Source: an uncultured Caulobacterales bacterium
GTDB lineage: Bacteria; Pseudomonadota; Alphaproteobacteria; Caulobacterales; Caulobacteraceae
DNA: 64,000 nucleotides
Reading direction: 5' to 3'
Assembly (NCBI GenBank): GCA_903862425.1
Contig: CAIOYC010000030.1
Location: 62,001-126,000 of the forward strand
The notes below the pieces were generated by a model. The model made no database searches. It saw only the letters and a program-made list of their open reading frames with translations, and was not told the origin of the DNA. The first letter of the stretch is position 1. Every line of letters begins with the position of its first letter. Positions 2,101-55,893 of the stretch are shown here, one piece after another. A program made the translations under genes and the position numbers.

Positions 2101-3452
2101 TGGACGCACTCCAGGGTGCTGGCCACTTCGTCGAAGCTCTTGGACGTGCTCTCCAAGATGGCGGCTTCGCCGGTCATCCGCTGCCAACGACGAACTGTCA
2201 GGTCCACGTACTGCGGATCCCGCTCGATGCCCCGACAACGCCGGCCGATCCGTTCGCAGGCCATCAGCGTGCTTCCCGTCCCCAGGAAGTTGTCGAGGAC
2301 GCGATCGCCACGCGCGGTAACATCGAGCAAGGCGTCGGCAATCATCTTCACCGGCTTGGGCGTGGCGTGCTCGGCCAAGAGGTCCGCTTCCTCAGAGCTG
2401 CGCATGAAAGTGTTGGCGCCAGGATACTTCCAAACATTCGTCCGGTTGCGGCCGTGCTTGCCCAGCTGAACATTGTTGCGGTGACGGCCGCGCCCTTTTT
2501 TGAGCACCAGAATTAGCTCGTGCTCTGAACGGTACAACGACCCCATGCCGGCGTTGTTCTTTGCCCAAACGACGATGTTGAGAAGCTCGTCGAACGCCTT
2601 GCCGGACGCGGCCAGCATCTCTGGAAGATGGCGCCAATCGGTGCAGGAAAAGCCGATGGCCCCGTCTGCGAAATGGTCTGCAGCCAGTGAAAACGCCTGA
2701 TCGAAAAACGTCGCCAGCCCGGCTTCGTCGAGCTCACCAGAGCACGAGACGAACTCGCGATACTTGCCCTTGCCGAAATAAAAGGCGACCGAGCTTCCGT
2801 AAGGCGGGTCGGAGAACCCTCCATCCACCCTCTCGCCTCTCAGTAGCTTCGCGTACGCGGTAGCGTCCAGCGCGTCTCCGCAAATGATCCGGTGTTTGCC
2901 CAGAAGCCAAACATCGCCGGTCCTGGACACGGCTGGTCCGGGCGCGGGGAGGGCGTCGTCTGGATCCGCGGCCTCTGTGGTATCGGCCTCCAGTCCTTCG
3001 ATCTTGATATCGATTTCCGCCATCGAGAAGCCGACGGCCTCGATATCGAAGTCGAGGTCTATGACGGCAAGCTCCTTCAAGCTGATGGCGAGTAGGCGCT
3101 CATCGAATGACGAGGTGTCGCCGCTTCGATTTTCAGCGATAGCGAAGCCTCGAACCTGGGTTGGAGTCAGGTCGTCAATGCAGATAGTGGGAACCTGCTC
3201 TCGACCAATCACCTCGCAGGCCAGCAGTCTGCCGTGACCGCAGATGACGTTGTCATCCCGGTCGATCAAGACAGGGACATTGAATCCAAAATTGAGGATG
3301 CTTTGGCCAATCTGTTTGATCTGGCTGCGGCTGTGCTTGCGCTCGTTCGACGGATTGAGCCTTAGCTCCTTCACGTTCCGGATCCTGAAGCTCATGCGCT
3401 CTAGGTCGTTTGGCTGGTCACCGCTTGGCGACGTCCGCTTTGTGCGAGTCAT
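2097..3452 (-). CDS. ParB-like nuclease domain / DNA methyltransferase fusion
   Basis: About 451 aa. Residues about 20-110 form a ParB/sulfiredoxin-like N-terminal domain with the CGHGR motif (71-75). The C-terminal half is an N6-adenine/N4-cytosine DNA methylase with catalytic SDPPYG (DPPY at 215-218) and the AdoMet-binding motif DNFLGTGS (387-394; more often DPFxGxG). Such fusions are common in temperate phages, where they methylate phage DNA, perhaps protecting it or marking packaging sites. The start at 3452 has AAGGAGA about 8 bases upstream; the longer frame upstream lacks a ribosome-binding site. It is the first gene of the leftward packaging operon; the repeats at 3586-3756 lie in its upstream region. 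Confidence 0.9.
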   Translation of the reverse strand: MTRTKRTSPSGDQPNDLERMSFRIRNVKELRLNPSNERKHSRSQIKQIGQSILNFGFNVPVLIDRDDNVICGHGRLLACEVIGREQVPTICIDDLTPTQVRGFAIAENRSGDTSSFDERLLAISLKELAVIDLDFDIEAVGFSMAEIDIKIEGLEADTTEAADPDDALPAPGPAVSRTGDVWLLGKHRIICGDALDATAYAKLLRGERVDGGFSDPPYGSSVAFYFGKGKYREFVSCSGELDEAGLATFFDQAFSLAADHFADGAIGFSCTDWRHLPEMLAASGKAFDELLNIVVWAKNNAGMGSLYRSEHELILVLKKGRGRHRNNVQLGKHGRNRTNVWKYPGANTFMRSSEEADLLAEHATPKPVKMIADALLDVTARGDRVLDNFLGTGSTLMACERIGRRCRGIERDPQYVDLTVRRWQRMTGEAAILESTSKSFDEVASTLECVQ

Positions 3453-3585
3453 TTTCGAATCTCCTTTCCTCGGGAGGATTGGAAAAAATCCCTTTGGATG
3501 ATCTGCGGCACTCTGACTCATGCCAATTCGCTGACATTCTTGGCCGGTCAAGGCAGCGCCGCGCTATCCGCCAAGCGTCGCAAAA

Positions 3586-3756
3586 TTCCCTGCACGACAC
3601 CTAGTCTTTCGCTGATCCGGCGCGAGCAGGGAAAAGGTCAGGGGGGAATTTTTATCACTCTGAAAAGGCTAGAGTTTCTATTGGGCGCGGCTCCCACCAG
3701 CCAACTTAAAGGTCGGTTTTGGCAGTTTTTCCCTGCAGAAATCCCTGCATCAGGGA
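3586..3756. repeat. Cluster of TCCCTGC motifs in both orientations
   Basis: Copies: TTCCCTGCA at 3586-3594, the reverse form GCAGGGAAAA at 3626-3635, TTTTTCCCTGCA at 3726-3737, and TCCCTGCA at 3742-3749, the last forming a perfect inverted repeat TCCCTG-CAT-CAGGGA (3742-3756). They lie 130-300 bp upstream of the methylase start. This fits multiple binding sites for a phage repressor or integrase, but no binding protein is identified. Confidence 0.55.
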
Positions 3757-4079
3757 AACTCCACTAGATCGTGATGGGCCAGAGACCGGCGCCTCCAGAC
3801 GGCGCGGAATAGCGGGTTATGGGTCGGCTTGGTGGGATGCGCGAACGGGTGTGGGCGCCGATAGCGGCGTGATTACCGTGGCATCGCCTCGGAGCGTTCG
3901 TTCGGAGAATGGTCTGGAAAATGGCTGGCGGGCACTCAGCGATTCACACCGGGGATATGGTTTGATGCGAATCTAAGTCGCGGACTTTCGGCCGCTATTG
4001 AGCGAGCAAAACGGACCGAGAGATTCGATTTGCGATAACAGGGAGAAAGGCGTTTTCCAAAACGGATCTAGTGGAGTTT
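3756..4079. repeat. Pair of perfect 15-bp inverted repeats 294 bp apart
   Basis: AAACTCCACTAGATC (3756-3770) recurs exactly as its reverse complement at 4065-4079. A second related pair lies beside it: GGGCCAGA and CGGCGCC at 3776-3792, again in reverse complement at 4081-4099, but in permuted order relative to the 15-bp repeats. No flanking target duplication is evident, so a simple MITE is not proven. Confidence 0.6.
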
Positions 4080-4140
4080 TGGCGCCGATTTTCTGGCCCG
4101 CGAAAAATCAGAAAAAGTGGAGACAAATCAGACATTTAGA

Positions 4141-4230
4141 TGGCGGTGACGCAGGGATTCGAACCCTGGATACGCTTTCACGTATGACGATTTAGCAAAC
4201 CGTTGCCTTCAGCCACTCGGCCACGTCACC
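4141..4230 (-). tRNA. tRNA-Ser(GCU)
   Basis: 90-nt class II tRNA with encoded CCA (4141-4143). Acceptor stem GGTGACG/CGTCACC; anticodon stem ACGGT/ATCGT around loop TTGCTAA, giving anticodon GCU for AGC/AGU codons; long variable arm; T-loop TTCGAAT. Its 3' end faces the phage module, the usual side for tRNA-targeted integration. I found no second copy of the tRNA 3' end within the window. Confidence 0.96.
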
Positions 4231-4332
4231 TCAGGGCGGGGTGGATAGCGGGTTCGGACAAAGCTTGCAACGCGGTCTTGGCGCCGGATTGTCACAAGCC
4301 GGGCGAACCCGCCCCGCTATCACGCGCCAACC

Positions 4333-5066
4333 TTAGCTGGGCTTCTTGAACCGAAGCAGGAACTGGTCCGTCTTGCCACGGATGGCGGGGTCGAACACCA
4401 TCTTGGTATGGTCGTCCGCTGGATTGGCCAGGATCTGGCTCTCCGCGTCGAGCACGAACCCGGCGGCCAGCACATCGGCCCTGACGCGCGCTTCGTCGAT
4501 CCGGTGCAGGGTCTCGGTATGCGTCAGACCCGCGCCCGGCGCGTCGGCGTGGTCGAGCACCACATAGACGCCGCCGGGCTTCAGCGCGGCGAAGACCCCT
4601 TTGTTGAAGGCAGCCACGTCGGCCGGGCCCATGAACTTGTCGTAGAGGTCGTGATAGTTCTGGCGGATGAACACCGCATCCAGACCCTTGGGCAGGGGCG
4701 TCGCGACGGGGTCGGCGCTCGCCTTTACATTGGCATAGGCCGGGTCGGCGGCCACCATGCTCATGACCTTCATCACCTCAGGGTGGATTTTCACGACCTC
4801 GGCCGTCTCCACCGCATAGACCGTGCCCGTCGGTCCCACAGCCTGGCTGAGCGAGCGGACGAAGCGGCCGCCGACGATGTCGGCCACCTTGTCGCCCGGC
4901 TTCAGCCCGATGAAGGCGATCACCTCCGGCGACTTCAGCGACGGGTCCTTCAGCGCATCCGCCGGCAGCTTTGCGGCATCGGTCTGGGCTGAAGCGGCGG
5001 GGCCATGGCAAGGGCAAGCAGGCAGACGCCCAGAGCCATGGGGCCAATGGCCGTAGTGATGCGCAC
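4333..5066 (-). pseudogene. Secreted class I methyltransferase-like protein (COG4798 type), frameshifted in the signal peptide
   Basis: The body (frame ending 4333) resembles predicted periplasmic methyltransferases: KPGDKVADIVGG in place of motif I, GTVYAVE, then FIRQNYHDLY and LKPGGVYVVLDH. The N-terminal signal peptide (ITTAIGPMALGVCLLALAMA) is in a different frame, starting at a GTG (5066) with GGAGG 6 bases upstream. The two frames join perfectly, giving ...AMAPAASAQTDA with an ASA cleavage site, if one base is added to the G run at 4999-5002 (C run on the coding strand). It is therefore either a real 1-bp deletion, a slippage-prone phase switch, or a sequencing error. Motif I is atypical, so activity is doubtful. 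It is divergent from recQ. Confidence 0.75.
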
Positions 5067-5147
5067 GACAATCCTCCACATATTTTTGGCCGACCTTAGC
5101 CGCATGCTGGGTTTTGGCCAGCGCCCATCCTCCGGCATAAGGCGGCC

Positions 5148-6968
<1,821 letters not shown>

Positions 6969-7037
6969 TACAGGTCCCTTTGCGCTTGCGCCGGCCGGAC
7001 CCTCCTATAGAACCGCGCGCTTGATCCGAGGGCTGAG

Positions 7038-8324
7038 ATGGACCGTATCGCCATCACCGGCGGGACCGAGCTGAGGGGCGAAATCCCCATTTCGGGCGCC
7101 AAGAATTCCGCCATCAAGCTGATGGCCGCGAGCCTTTTGACCGACCAGCCGCTGCGCCTCACCAACATGCCGCGCCTGGCCGACACGCGCATCCTCGCCA
7201 AGCTCCTGAACCGTCTGGGAACCGAGACGGAGGAGGTCGATGACGCGGACGGGCAGGGGATGGTTCTGCGCACGCCGGAGATCGTCTCCGCCATCGCCTC
7301 CTATGATCTGGTGCGCCAGATGCGGGCTTCCTTCAACGTGCTTGGACCGCTGCTGGCCCGTTCACGCCAGGCCAAGGTCAGCCTGCCCGGCGGGGATCCC
7401 ATCGGGGCGCGGCCGCTTAACTTCCACCTCGACGCTCTGGCCGAGCTTGGGGCGACCATCGACCTGAACGGCGGCTATGTGTTCGCCCAGGCGCCGCGCG
7501 GGCTGAAGGGCGGGCACGTGGTGTTTCCCGCTGTGTCGGTCGGCGCCACCGAACACACCATGCTCGCCGCCGTTCTGGCGCGGGGCGAGACCCTGATCGA
7601 GAACGCCGCCATGGAGCCGGAGATCGTCGACCTGGCGGACTGTCTGAACGCCATGGGCGCCAGGATCGAAGGGGCGGGTACGCCTACCCTGCAGATCCAG
7701 GGCGTCAGTCACCTGAACGGCGCGACCCATGCGGTGATGCCGGACCGGATCGAGGCGGGCACCTACGCCATGGCCGTGGCGATGGCGGGTGGGGATGTAA
7801 CCCTCAAGGGCGTGCGATGTGAGCATCTCCTGCCGCTGATCGAGCGCCTCAAGGCCGCGGGCGTGGAGGTCGTGCCCGAGGGCTCGACCATCGCCGTGCG
7901 GCGAAAGGCGGGCGAGCGCCTGCGAGCTGTCGATGTGGAGACCGCACCGTTTCCCGGTTTCGCCACCGACCTGCAGGCCCAGTTCATGGCTCTGATGACC
8001 TTGGCCGACGGGGAAAGCGTGATCCGCGAGACCATCTTCGAGAACCGCTTCATCCATGCCGCCGAACTGGCGCGCATGGGCGCCGATATCTCCGTCCAGG
8101 GCGGCGAGGCGCGGGTGTCGGGCGTCAACGGGCTGACCGGCGCGCAGGTGGCGGCCTCCGACGTTCGGGCCGGTGTGTCGCTGGTGATCGCCGGCCTGGC
8201 CGCGCGGGGCCGGACCTTGGTGGAAGGCGTCTATCATCTGGACCGGGGCTTCGAACGCCTGGAGGAAAAGCTGCAGGCCTGCGGCGCACAGGTCGAGCGG
8301 GTGTCGTCGGAGATGGCGGCATGA
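7038..8324 (+). CDS. murA: UDP-N-acetylglucosamine 1-carboxyvinyltransferase MurA
   Basis: 428 aa. Cytosolic first committed enzyme of peptidoglycan synthesis: transfers enolpyruvate from PEP to UDP-GlcNAc. N-terminus ITGGTELRGEIPISGAKNS is the family signature. The catalytic loop reads LPGGDPIGARP, so the residue equivalent to E. coli Cys115 (the fosfomycin target) is Asp120 (codon 7395-7397). Asp-type MurA enzymes are known to be active and fosfomycin-insensitive. It heads the conserved cluster murA-DUF2948-hisD-UPF0262-phosphatase-infA and overlaps the next gene by 4 bp (ATGA). Confidence 0.97.
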   Translation: MDRIAITGGTELRGEIPISGAKNSAIKLMAASLLTDQPLRLTNMPRLADTRILAKLLNRLGTETEEVDDADGQGMVLRTPEIVSAIASYDLVRQMRASFNVLGPLLARSRQAKVSLPGGDPIGARPLNFHLDALAELGATIDLNGGYVFAQAPRGLKGGHVVFPAVSVGATEHTMLAAVLARGETLIENAAMEPEIVDLADCLNAMGARIEGAGTPTLQIQGVSHLNGATHAVMPDRIEAGTYAMAVAMAGGDVTLKGVRCEHLLPLIERLKAAGVEVVPEGSTIAVRRKAGERLRAVDVETAPFPGFATDLQAQFMALMTLADGESVIRETIFENRFIHAAELARMGADISVQGGEARVSGVNGLTGAQVAASDVRAGVSLVIAGLAARGRTLVEGVYHLDRGFERLEEKLQACGAQVERVSSEMAA

Positions 8325-53282: not shown

Positions 53283-53311
53283 GTTCTGTAAGTGTTCCGG
53301 GTTAATGTCAA
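53283..53311 (-). promoter_or_regulatory. lexA promoter: -35 TTGACA and SOS box
   Basis: SOS box GTTC-TGTAAGT-GTTC at 53283-53297 (plus-strand reading) matches the alphaproteobacterial LexA operator exactly. TTGACA is on the minus strand at 53311-53306, so the box covers the -10 region. A second half-match GTTC-N7-GTCC lies nearer the gene (53272-53258, minus). This implies autorepression. The -35 hexamer is within the transposon's target duplication. Confidence 0.85.
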
Positions 53312-53313
53312 GT
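53305..53313. repeat. Target-site duplication, lexA side
   Basis: ATGTCAAGT, identical to 55885-55893 on the other side of the transposon. IS1595-family elements usually duplicate about 8 bp; here 9 bp match. Confidence 0.9.
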
Positions 53314-53339
53314 GGCGATTATGCACTTGCCATACCAAG
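53314..53339 (+). repeat. Left terminal inverted repeat
   Basis: 26 bp starting GGCGATTATGCACTTGCC, exact reverse complement of 55859-55884. Confidence 0.95.
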
Positions 53340-53430
53340 CGAACGGAAATAAATCCATGACCGACGGGCCGGTATTTTACGAAAAAGTAAGAGAATCAAC
53401 GCGTCCCCGCCGTGGTATGGTGGGGGCGTT

Positions 53431-53628
53431 ATGAGCGCGCCAGATCAAATGGAGATTGAGCCAACACCCGCTATGATCGACGCGGGGGCATCGGCGTTGC
53501 TTTCTAGCTGCTATGCCAACGAATTTCGTCCAACCACGGCGGAGCAAGCCGTGCGGGAGGTCTGGGCGGCAATGGATCAGGCGTCACGCCAAGCTCAACA
53601 AGCAAAAGGCTGTGGGCGACCCAAGTAG
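53431..53628 (+). CDS. Transposon passenger: 65-aa protein
   Basis: Begins MSAPDQMEIEPTPAMIDAG and contains a helical TAEQAVREVWAAMDQA, a pattern seen in small phage and mobile-element proteins. GGTGGGGGCG precedes the ATG. Its 3' half overlaps the convergent HEPN-motif gene by 125 bp, so one of the two ends may be misjudged. No function recognised; a small partner protein for the adjacent gene is conceivable. Confidence 0.5.
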   Translation: MSAPDQMEIEPTPAMIDAGASALLSSCYANEFRPTTAEQAVREVWAAMDQASRQAQQAKGCGRPK

Positions 53629-54040
53629 CGTAGTGGGATTCAGATAGCATCTCGTCCAACTCCCCCAGACTGATAGCTTTAAGCTTCGATTGGGACCACG
53701 CGACAGCCCGATCCGGCGTGGCCGTTATAACGGCATGCGCCAGCATGTTCCGGTCGTTTCGGTAGTTTTCTGCGACATACACAAGCTCGATAACAAGCGT
53801 ATCCATCCCTTGGGGAAGATGCCCCCGCTTACGCCTTGCGTTGAGGAGATCGATTTTTCTCTTGAGGTCGATCACGTGGACCAAATCAGCGCCGTCTCGC
53901 GCGTCACTGATGCCCGATAGGCGCTGGATCAAATGGCCTATCTCATTGTCAATCATCGCCCAGTTAGCGATGATGGTCGCGATTTTTAGTCCCTGCTCAG
54001 GTGTGAGCCCAAATTCCCAGAGCGTCGGTGTAATGACCAC
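53504..54040 (-). CDS. Transposon passenger: helical protein with HEPN-type RNxxxH motif
   Basis: About 178 aa, predominantly helical. Contains YRNDRNMLAHA, in which RNMLAH fits the RNxxxH signature of HEPN RNases, after helices (IANWAMIDNEIGHLIQRL; DLKRKIDLLNARRK). The tail is proline-rich (DPLPPRPPARLAPPW). GTG 54040 has AGGAA about 9 bases upstream; the frame is open to 54175 with an ATG at 54109. Proteins of this shape occur as hypothetical genes on mobile elements. RNase or toxin/defence activity is inference from one motif. Confidence 0.55.
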   Translation of the reverse strand: MVITPTLWEFGLTPEQGLKIATIIANWAMIDNEIGHLIQRLSGISDARDGADLVHVIDLKRKIDLLNARRKRGHLPQGMDTLVIELVYVAENYRNDRNMLAHAVITATPDRAVAWSQSKLKAISLGELDEMLSESHYATWVAHSLLLVELGVTPDPLPPRPPARLAPPWLDEIRWHSS

Positions 54041-54214
54041 GAAGCTTATTCCTAATGATGAATCAGGCGCAGAGGACGCTAGGCGCCGCGACGAGATAAT
54101 CCGCCGCATGATCGCGACCCCTCCGCAACCTAAGCCGAGGGTTACTTGCGAGTCGATTCCCTCCAAGGGTGACAAAGCCGAGAAGTAGGCGCACCATCCG
54201 CGACGCTGCTTCTG

Positions 54215-54371
54215 GGTTTGATCACCCGGTCTCTAGCATTGCGCTGAACGTAGGTCCCCGCTTCGTCGGGCGGCCTGCCAATACAACACCTTCGGGGAAT
54301 ACGCAGGACGCGTCTTCCTACGTTCACGCGTGATCAACCGCCCGGCTTCGGACGGGCCTTGAACGTGGGGG
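54215..54371 (+). ncRNA. Structured RNA / riboswitch-like leader in the transposon
   Basis: Nested pairings: GGTTTGATCAC (54215-54225) with GTGATCAACC (54330-54339); TGAACGTAGG (54245-54254) with CCTACGTTCA (54317-54326); TCCCCG (54255-54260) with CGGGGA (54293-54298); then a GCCCG/CGGGC hairpin (54340-54357). CCTACGTTCA can instead pair with TGAACGTGGG (54360-54369), which overlaps the ribosome-binding site of the 151-aa gene (ATG 54376). Two exclusive folds are thus possible. No known riboswitch class recognised. Confidence 0.55.
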
Positions 54372-54375
54372 CTGT

Positions 54376-54831
54376 ATGCGTCGACTATTTCCTGTGGCGG
54401 GATTTCTGATCCTGTTCGCCATTGCGTGGCATTTGCTAACGCCGTCTCCAGAGACCAAGGCGGCTACAAACCATGCCGATGAGATCGCGCACTCGGTAGC
54501 GGCGTCCCTCCCTCCCGGAGCATCTGGCGCGACAGTGACCGTTGATGACAAAACCATCAGCAACAATACCTATTTCCTCACGATCAATTATCCACAGTCC
54601 TTCGACTGGAATACGGATGTCGTATTCGACAATGGAAAAACCGTGGTGCGGCGAGTGCTGGATAAGCTCATGGCTGACGGGAAACATCCGGCTGAGGATC
54701 GCACCATCATCCGCGCCTATTCCCAACAGGTGGGCGGCCGGGGTGAGGCGACCGGCGCGCCCATGGTGCATGTCTTCGGATACACCGAATATGACGCATC
54801 CTCAGACAGCATTCGCTGGGTGGATGACTAG
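54376..54831 (+). CDS. Transposon passenger: 151-aa secreted or membrane-anchored protein
   Basis: N-terminal hydrophobic segment (LFPVAGFLILFAIAWHLL) acts as a signal anchor or signal peptide, followed by a soluble domain of mixed alpha/beta character with DNGKTVVRRVLDKLMADGK and RTIIRAYSQQVGG. GGGGG is 4 bases before ATG 54376, partly within the alternative RNA pairing. Not recognised. It ends 45 bp before the convergent transposase stop. Confidence 0.65.
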   Translation: MRRLFPVAGFLILFAIAWHLLTPSPETKAATNHADEIAHSVAASLPPGASGATVTVDDKTISNNTYFLTINYPQSFDWNTDVVFDNGKTVVRRVLDKLMADGKHPAEDRTIIRAYSQQVGGRGEATGAPMVHVFGYTEYDASSDSIRWVDD

Positions 54832-54876
54832 CCCTTCGTCTTCCACCTAGATCGGCGTCGTTTGGCCCATGGCGGC

Positions 54877-55821
54877 TTAGGCGGCGGCTTTGAGGCCGTC
54901 AGTCCGCCGATAAGTCAGACGCTTGCCTACGGTGCCCGCAACCGCCGTACGGGCACGCATGGTATCGGTGATGCCCAGCGCAGTGCGGTTCGAGTATCGG
55001 AAGTCGAACTCGCGCATGTAGCGGTGCAGGTGTTGCTCGCCGCAGTGCTGATAGATGCCACGCATCCCGCGTTTGAAGATGGAGAAAAAGCCTTCAATCG
55101 TGTTCGTGTGGATCACGACGGGGGCGTATTTCACGTACTCGTCCTTGCCGTGGTTCACGACGCCGTGGGCTGAGAAGTTCCAGCCAACCGAGGTGTAGCG
55201 CGGAGCCTCATCGGTCATCAGATGGGCCTCCCGGCTCATATTGGCCTCAAGGATCGGCATAATGGTGGACAGCTTCAAATCTTTTACGACGGCAGATCGC
55301 GCACGGCCGGTGTTGCGCTCTACCAAGGTGACGATTTTCATCTTGTGACCAGCGCCGCCCTTCGCCTTGGCGCGTTCGCGCAGATTGCCGATGAAGGTTT
55401 CGTCCACTTCAACCGCGCCGCCATCATCACCCATCGGAGGATTGGCGTCGCCCTGGTTCATCGCCTCGCGGATACGATGCGCCATGAACCAGGCCGTGCG
55501 GTAAGAGCCAAATCCGAGCGAGCGGTAGAGCTGGTGCGCGCTCATGCCCTTCTTTGACGAGCAGAGCAGATGCGTTGCCAGCATCCACTTGTGCAGCGGG
55601 ATGTGCGATTTCTCATAGACGGTGCCCATCACAGCCGTGAAGGGCTTGCGGCAGTCCTTGCACTTGTAGAGGCCAGGACGCGTCGTGCGGCCTTGCATCA
55701 GCGTCGAGTTGCCGACCGTCCCACAGTGCGGGCAAACGCGACCTTCGGGCCAGCGAATCGCCTCGAAGTGAGCGCGGGCCTTTTCCTCGTCGTGGAAGAT
55801 GGGATCGGAAAGGGTCGTCAT
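54877..55821 (-). CDS. IS1595-family (ISXO2-like) transposase
   Basis: 314 aa, full length. N-terminal zinc ribbon (CPHCG...CKDCRKPF), helix-turn-helix region (MSAHQLYRSLGFGSYRTAWFM), and DDE-type catalytic core: VEVDETFIGN, MTDEAPRYT and HTNTIEGFFSIFKRGMRG, the ISXO2-like signature. It starts 38 bp from the right terminal repeat. No frameshift or truncation, so likely active. Confidence 0.95.
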   Translation of the reverse strand: MTTLSDPIFHDEEKARAHFEAIRWPEGRVCPHCGTVGNSTLMQGRTTRPGLYKCKDCRKPFTAVMGTVYEKSHIPLHKWMLATHLLCSSKKGMSAHQLYRSLGFGSYRTAWFMAHRIREAMNQGDANPPMGDDGGAVEVDETFIGNLRERAKAKGGAGHKMKIVTLVERNTGRARSAVVKDLKLSTIMPILEANMSREAHLMTDEAPRYTSVGWNFSAHGVVNHGKDEYVKYAPVVIHTNTIEGFFSIFKRGMRGIYQHCGEQHLHRYMREFDFRYSNRTALGITDTMRARTAVAGTVGKRLTYRRTDGLKAAA

Positions 55822-55858
55822 CGGGTCGTCTCCAGTGAGAAAACCCTACAGAATCAAT

Positions 55859-55884
55859 CTTGGTATGGCAAGTGCATAATCGCC
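55859..55884 (-). repeat. Right terminal inverted repeat
   Basis: 26 bp ending ...GTGCATAATCGCC, exact reverse complement of the left end. Confidence 0.95.
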
Positions 55885-55893
55885 ATGTCAAGT
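55885..55893. repeat. Target-site duplication, trpC side
   Basis: ATGTCAAGT, 8 bp from the trpC stop codon; matches 53305-53313. Confidence 0.9.

Follow-up and report, generated by a model that had tools for sequence, protein, structure and literature searches.

Positions 53314-55884 of the stretch of DNA analysed here, 64,000 nt from an uncultured Caulobacterales bacterium (assembly GCA_903862425.1, contig CAIOYC010000030.1, positions 62,001 to 126,000; hereafter the window), hold a complete transposon of the IS1595 family. Between its ends it carries the transposase gene and a cargo that comprises a gene for a HEPN-type protein, two small genes of families that we call AG and TPP, an RNA resembling sRNA-Xcc1 and a gene for a 151-aa protein. 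The features are, in the order of their coordinates:

53305-53313: left copy of the target duplication, 9 bp, ATGTCAAGT, read from the sequence
53314-53339, plus strand: left terminal inverted repeat, 26 bp, perfect, GGCGATTATGCACTTGCCATACCAAG; the ends of relatives are alike
53431-53628, plus strand: AG-family small protein, 65 aa (EIEPTPAMIDAGA...), with a weak match to phrog_5913 (E 0.0012)
53504-54040, minus strand: HEPN-type protein, 178 aa from a GTG start, motif RNMLAH; the open reading frame (ORF) opens at TTG 54175
54033-54188, plus strand: TPP-family small protein, 51 aa (RRMIATPPQPKP), conserved in relatives
54246-54254, plus strand: GAACGTAGG, a possible alternative partner of the RNA loop, complement of CCTACGTTC as judged by eye
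54265-54354, plus strand: structured RNA, sRNA-Xcc1-like (RF02221), below the gathering score
54315-54326, plus strand: loop of this RNA, UUCCUACGUUCA, complementary to the ribosome-binding region of the 151-aa gene
54360-54371, plus strand: ribosome-binding region of the 151-aa gene, TGAACGTGGGGG, which can pair with the loop at 54315-54326
54376-54831, plus strand: 151-aa protein with one N-terminal hydrophobic segment, an orphan
54877-55821, minus strand: IS1595-family transposase, 314 aa, zinc ribbon and ISXO2-like domain (PF12762, PF12760, NF033547)
55859-55884, minus strand: right terminal inverted repeat, 26 bp, identical to the left one (GGCGATTATGCACTTGCCATACCAAG)
55885-55893: right copy of the target duplication, 9 bp, ATGTCAAGT, read from the sequence

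The perfect 26-bp ends, the 9-bp duplication and the intact ISXO2-like transposase had all been called in a first-pass annotation of the sequence, and all three calls hold. The element has inverted ends and a short target duplication, as expected of the IS1595 family. An unoccupied site was found in three relatives (L187-L189; loci carry L numbers), of which two share the genus and the third the family: ATGTCAAGT is present there in single copy with similarity on both flanks, and the site without the element reads ...TTAATGTCAAGTGAA.... Hence, the element is a genuine insertion with correctly placed ends. Its own draft genome of 42 contigs yielded one copy of it, and the exact 26-bp end had no match in viral contigs. 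The transposase scores above the cut-offs of PF12762 (E 1.6e-32), PF12760 and NF033547 (E 5.3e-58) and thus shows the ISXO2-like domain with N-terminal zinc ribbon that is characteristic of IS1595. In nine aligned transposases, C30, C33, C54 and C57 of the zinc ribbon are invariant, as are D140, D204, N240 and K250, which we take to be the catalytic residues.

Relatives of the element were collected in two ways. A contig scan with the window transposase gave 11 loci, mostly from Alphaproteobacteria, and a transposase profile search of 385 genomes of the window's class gave matches at E≤1e-70 at 74 places in 47 genomes. We fetched 60 regions, which cover 61 of the 73 places besides the window; the rest are fragments, further copies and weaker matches. 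Together with L006-L015 and the window these regions form 71 sources (L016 was used only in the end search and the Rfam scan). Fifteen sources contain no bounded element, and the bounded elements number 57, 48 in the window clade and 9 in a sister clade, with two contributed by L077. L085, L104 and L131 were retained though no target duplication was seen, and L114, with a broken transposase, was placed in the window clade by us. The bounded elements are 1.8-4.3 kb long. A target duplication of 8 bp is typical of IS1595; most relatives share this length, and a few have 9 bp like the window element. Cargo is present in 57 of 57 bounded elements, always on the 3' side of the transposase, where the bounding filter required more than 300 nt; the end searches gave no well-scored shorter element.

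The cargo of the window clade is rich in HEPN-type proteins. HEPN proteins carry an R-x4-6-H motif, and the form RNxxxH occurs in a main cargo ORF of 22 of the 48 window-clade elements, the window included, as against 5 of 234 equal-length windows from the flanks of the same loci, which represent general flanks and not accessory DNA only (Fisher p 4e-15). None of the nine sister-clade elements has it. The wider motif R[ND]xxxH occurs in 26 of 48 elements and 17 of 234 windows; three of these 26 elements (L091, L092, L114) have it in an ORF that does not resemble HEPN. Five elements added by eye with RD, RH or RVxxxH (L014, L077.0, L079, L084, L110) bring the HEPN-like total to 27 of 48, the flank control not having been recounted for RH or RV. 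In an alignment of 24 cargo proteins picked by motif, the R and H are invariant and the N is nearly so, and RNMLAH of the window protein aligns with them. In a reverse search of 142 genomes with a profile of compact HEPN proteins, 13 genomes gave a total of 17 matched places. Six of these belong to the loci collected above, namely L109, L114 and four that had contributed to the profile. Among the 11 others, a TPP gene is present in 6 (one weak, E 9e-4), an AG gene in 4, and an IS1595 transposase lies near 4 (truncated by a contig end in three cases, at a distance of about 3 kb in the other). The cargo is thus for the most part no chance fragment. The first-pass annotation had held that absence of the passengers from other copies would speak against its reading, and the outcome is divided: families of the HEPN-type gene and of both small genes turn up again in other elements, and only the window copy was seen to contain the RNA and the 151-aa protein.

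Beside the HEPN-like elements, 14 of the 48 carry cargo of another nameable type and 7 carry cargo that we could not name, several cargo genes being without a family. Pfam matches identify PIN (L094; two ORFs in the family tally), NYN (L089), DUF433 (L081), RelA_SpoT (L106), SocA_Panacea (L117), DUF3800 (L098), DUF1828 (L093), GmrSD_N with HNH (L091) and N6_N4 methylase with Mrr (L102). L092 was assigned to DUF3800 by its sequence and the family tally, L011 to DUF5615 and L013 to PIN by our reading of the sequence together with that tally, and L112 and L113, which have no Pfam match, are HNH-like by eye. The cargo of the sister clade matches methyltransferase and restriction-enzyme models (NotI, BglII, C5, N6 and D12 types) as well as GIY-YIG and HNH models, with a methyltransferase in five of nine elements (L125, L128, L132, L135 and L136, assigned by sequence). 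This points to small transposons that harbour restriction-modification systems. Five plasmid copies were inspected, of which one is annotated as VapC (L144) and one as PIN (L147). A PADLOC scan, confined to 46 ORFs of non-HEPN cargo and covering neither HEPN nor sister-clade proteins, returned 82 families, 25 of them listed, as a tally in which matches are not tied to elements; NsnA, PD-T4-2_A, PDC-S33 and restriction-modification models are among the matches listed. L077 holds two related IS1595 elements with different cargo (3272-5553 and 5563-7915), arranged head to head across a gap of about 9 bp and sharing the matching target sequence CTTAAAAA or its complement.

A second sample came from a phylum-wide search of 398 genomes, 22 of them with a match at E≤1e-100, which gave 18 new regions and 14 bounded elements. 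Ten of 26 remaining ORFs were scanned and yielded three matches to DUF3800 and single matches to NYN, Beta protein and D12 methyltransferase; four ORFs are without a family. In one of these loci (L154), the Beta protein gene (PF14350) adjoins a 229-aa ORF without a Pfam match. The HEPN excess is unconfirmed by this smaller sample alone; the varied, partly defence-type cargo does repeat there.

The HEPN gene of the window probably starts at GTG 54040, since the longer N-terminal reading runs antisense to the small gene at 54033-54188. Aligned by hhalign with 13 compact cargo HEPN proteins, the window protein matches from the first helix to the motif (probability 80.8, E 1.3e-5). In 240 genomes it has, besides itself, one weak match (29%), and no relative was found in viral contigs; a PDB search with the HEPN alignment gave three weak matches, none of them HEPN. 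A type II HEPN/MNT toxin-antitoxin (TA) pair was considered and set aside, as no ORF of the window cargo matches MNT or another nucleotidyltransferase in Pfam above cut-off. No nucleotidyltransferase antitoxin family is listed among the scanned non-HEPN cargo ORFs, where ORFs below about 140 aa were mostly unscanned.

The two small genes recur across the elements. At E<0.001, the TPP family was found in 20 of 46 elements and the AG family in 11, the window included in both; the eight sister elements within these 46 have neither at this threshold. Both look like real genes because their variation peaks at codon position 3, and in TPP position 2 varies least. The three passenger genes of the first-pass annotation (the 65-aa, RNxxxH and 151-aa ORFs) are present, and the TPP gene is a fourth that it missed. 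In the window, TPP is divergent from the HEPN gene and overlaps its start, and AG converges on its 3' end. A role of TPP as a HEPN-specific antitoxin is unlikely, as TPP also accompanies other cargo (L010, L012, L089, L093, L106, L112, L113).

Comparison of related elements points to an exchangeable slot. Among 14 related pairs, DNA similarity was found at the transposase side in all 14 (69-81%) and at the far end in 7, with the middle similar in short patches only, for example in TPP. L106 (RelA_SpoT) and L112 (HNH-like by eye) may serve as an example, with 78% DNA similarity across the transposase. The slot is exchanged, since closely related transposases go with unrelated cargo. The HEPN label, mapped onto a tree built from 55 transposases, requires 15 changes, 8 of them forced by starred branches; shuffled labels require 18.6 on average, and 31 of 500 shuffles were as low as 15.

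In this copy of the element, the RNA and the 151-aa gene form a unit that has the transposase gene on one side and the TPP gene on the other. Its match to RF02221 extends along the full model length (1-87) with 39.1 bits and E 1.1e-4 for the RNA, below the gathering score of 53, and judged by this match it is a homologue of the family but not a curated member. The structured RNA seen at first pass is thereby supported, although not by its folding energy, which is not unusual (z -1.07, with 32 of 200 shuffles as good), and the accompanying statement that the cargo matched nothing known was partly wrong, given this Rfam homologue. In C4 antisense RNAs a loop covers the downstream ribosome-binding site; C4 (RF01695) is not among the Rfam matches of the RNA region up to E 5. 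Pairing as good as the 12-nt helix between the loop and the ribosome-binding region arose in 114 out of 5000 shuffles and, among 5000 20-mers taken from the window, in 77. In the minimum free energy fold, only the GAAC part of GAACGTAGG pairs with GTTC. The 151-aa protein has, besides itself, six weak matches in 148 relatives, confined to the N-terminal segment, and no homologues in plasmids or viral contigs. A model built from 30 RF02221 RNAs matched only the window among the 71 sources (default filters; the loci of the second sample lay outside this search), and this one match follows from the window RNA being part of the model; in L006-L016, RF02221 was not found at the gathering score. Within these sources, the RNA is thus no regular component of the transposon.

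RF02221 matches at E≤0.01 are present in 37 of 240 genomes of the class, four of them above the cut-off, and in none of 14 control genomes. One locus per genome was analysed, giving 30 loci from 30 of the 37 matched genomes. In 23 of 30, the window included, a gene with a ribosome-binding site starts no more than 60 nt downstream (6.4% at random positions), and none has a gene start on the antisense side. At these 23 loci, the 3' part of the RNA pairs with the ribosome-binding region of its own gene with a score of 364. Swapping of partners gave 317 ± 12 and in 2000 permutations never reached this score. In the closing stem, five of seven pairs show two-sided changes among the 30 sequences. 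Based on the position near genes, the excess of pairing with the own ribosome-binding site and the changes in the closing stem, we read the RF02221 family as cis leaders, and the window RNA probably acts as such a leader for the orphan 151-aa gene. The RNAs (L017-L046) are widespread in the class, their number reaching 13 in the 1.4-Mb genome G094, and one locus (L020) has two divergent matches within 500 bp (1123-1206 and 1501-1585). The genes that follow them are very varied and include, by eye, antirepressor-like, lipoprotein-like and methyltransferase-like ORFs.

The surroundings of the insertion were also inspected. A lexA-like gene, named by eye, runs on the minus strand from 53243, and the duplicated target starts 61 nt 5' of it, just beyond a GTTCN7GTTC box at 53283-53297 that is presumably an SOS box; the window contains two such boxes, with 1.4 expected by chance. 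On the minus strand the target reads ACTTGACAT, within which TTGACA is also kept at the empty site of the relatives. The duplication thus preserves a -35-like hexamer.

Taken as a whole, the observations are best explained, with a fair though far from complete degree of confidence, by an IS1595 transposon that would act as a compact chassis for toxin or defence genes, here with a HEPN-type putative RNase. The two ends, the transposase, the recurrent TPP and AG genes and a middle slot with a gene that varies among related elements are established; in the window clade this slot is filled most often by a HEPN-type gene and otherwise often by another toxin-type or nuclease-type gene. HEPN-domain proteins have been linked to abortive infection, and the HEPN protein could be an RNase that arrests growth or cleaves RNA on a trigger such as phage infection; the element might then pay its way by protecting or addicting its host. 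The slot would probably be swapped through recombination between the conserved outer parts. This copy has an extra unit, the sRNA-Xcc1-like RNA followed by the 151-aa anchored protein, in which the RNA would most likely act in cis as a leader, its loop or 3' strand being able to mask the ribosome-binding site of the following gene. The portable defence or toxin module proposed at first pass thus finds support at the family level, in the enrichment of HEPN motifs, the TA and restriction families and the differing cargo on related chassis. This support comes from sequence rather than function, and the evidence for the HEPN protein of the window itself is weak.

Several results weigh against this interpretation. 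The window HEPN protein matches no curated HEPN family model and nothing in Pfam, PHROG or NCBIfam, the compact HEPN profile at E 1e-4 gave no match in its own genome (G000) and so did not recover it, its single-sequence AlphaFold model is uninformative (pLDDT 42.3), and no antitoxin partner was identified. The 24 HEPN-type proteins match 12 Pfam families, of which four are HEPN models with one member each. In the second sample RNxxxH is present in 3 of 14 elements and in 2 of 42 control windows (p 0.09), a weaker signal. Unnameable cargo is carried by 7 of 48 elements, one of which, L114, is matched by the HEPN profile, and 5 of the 11 additional loci of the reverse search lack any chassis gene. 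All cargo classes together require 21 changes on the transposase tree, compared with 26.6 after shuffling (0 of 200 as low); cargo class is therefore non-random on the tree and exchange is limited, not free. As to the RNA, the pairing in the window taken alone is an event of about 2%, modestly beyond chance, and each pair of the closing stem is broken in 0-8 of the 30 sequences.

The HEPN and other toxin-like genes could instead serve the transposon itself by restraining or timing transposition, for instance through cleavage of the transposase mRNA, or by killing cells that lose the element, with no protection of the host. An argument of this kind, that TA genes belong to the transposition module, has been made for Tn3 elements (PMC7157771), and the cargo in all 57 bounded elements, under the filter of >300 nt beyond the transposase, would fit it. 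The activities in the slot, however, are very diverse, DNA methyltransferases and GmrSD/Mrr-type proteins among them, which is hard to reconcile with one regulatory role, and no antitoxin was found beside the window HEPN gene; we regard this explanation as rather unlikely. Ordinary passenger capture, in which the slot takes up nearby genes and toxin or defence genes are frequent since they are common in accessory DNA, would account for the cargo genes without a family, for the 151-aa gene and RNA, which resemble a one-off capture, and for the weak HEPN signal of the second sample. It is at odds with 22 of 48 elements against 5 of 234 windows from general, not exclusively accessory, flanks, and with the chassis gene beside compact HEPN genes in 6 of the 11 loci reached from the HEPN side, and appears quite improbable to us.

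For the RNA, the alternative is an independent trans-acting small RNA (sRNA) that merely adjoins the 151-aa gene. sRNA-Xcc1 was reportedly labelled trans-acting (Chen 2011, by its title only), and our cis-leader reading of RF02221 runs against this published label. An 88-nt sRNA-Xcc1 transcript, mapped in Xanthomonas campestris (PMC2996969), would likewise suit a free sRNA. The position directly 5' of a same-strand gene at 23 of 30 loci with 0 of 30 on the other side, the excess of pairing with the own gene and the location upstream of symE in Xanthomonas integron cassettes (PMC12444791), which is consistent with a cis role, all argue against trans action, and we consider it unlikely. The cis-leader reading is also one part of a farther-reaching proposal: that the clade is specialised in shuttling HEPN and other defence genes that attack nucleic acids, with a real slot swapped between the transposase/TPP side and the far end, that TPP and AG are dedicated parts, such as general toxin silencers or exchange helpers, and that the sRNA-Xcc1 class consists of cis leaders of mobile genes and not of free trans-acting sRNAs. 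In this full form, we offer it only tentatively and with considerable doubt.

If the chassis interpretation is true, the element family would be a source of new small defence and toxin genes, with anything between the transposase and the far end as a candidate. About half of the window clade (27 of 48, partly by eye) carries HEPN-like proteins, most without a match to a HEPN model, and the family would serve as an uncomplicated natural example of how a very small transposon exchanges its cargo. The function of sRNA-Xcc1 becomes directly testable as that of a cis leader.

Parts of this arrangement have known counterparts. That IS1595 elements can carry passenger genes, as stated at first pass, is in print (PMC11891212, citing Siguier 2009, with ISNha5), and passenger genes are likewise present and varied in the window's family. 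The tIS elements such as ISNha5 resemble the window element in the IS1595 transposase, the inverted ends and the passenger genes beside the transposase; the passenger of ISNha5, however, is a transcription regulator (PMC11891212), whereas the elements described here are 2-4 kb long, with a varying slot of HEPN, TA or restriction type and two recurrent small genes. Toxin-type genes, including PIN and HEPN, are also found on Tn3 transposons, where 39 of 190 elements carry TA pairs after several independent acquisitions; these are type II pairs near res sites, one of them HEPN-MNT (PMC7157771). The window family differs in its type of transposase and in that HEPN-type proteins are its most frequent cargo; next to the window HEPN protein, no MNT partner was found. 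With HEPN toxins the cargo proteins share the invariant R and H and the near-invariant N of RNxxxH, and a few match HEPN Pfam models, but the window protein is without a library match and its partner gene was not found. The RNA shares with sRNA-Xcc1 the full-length match, the closing stem and a core resembling AATACAA...GGGAATA; it differs in scoring below the gathering score and in lying in an IS1595 transposon before an orphan gene, the known setting being an integron cassette before symE (PMC12444791). Because sRNA-Xcc1 occurs in cassettes, an origin of the unit of RNA and 151-aa gene from an integron cassette is conceivable. Among publications on IS1595 with passengers, HEPN, TA, restriction-modification, anti-phage or methyltransferase genes, taken by title or abstract opening and with most subscription journals outside the scope, none describes such a chassis. 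Hence, passenger genes in IS1595 are known, and their form as a putative HEPN, toxin and defence chassis appears to be new.

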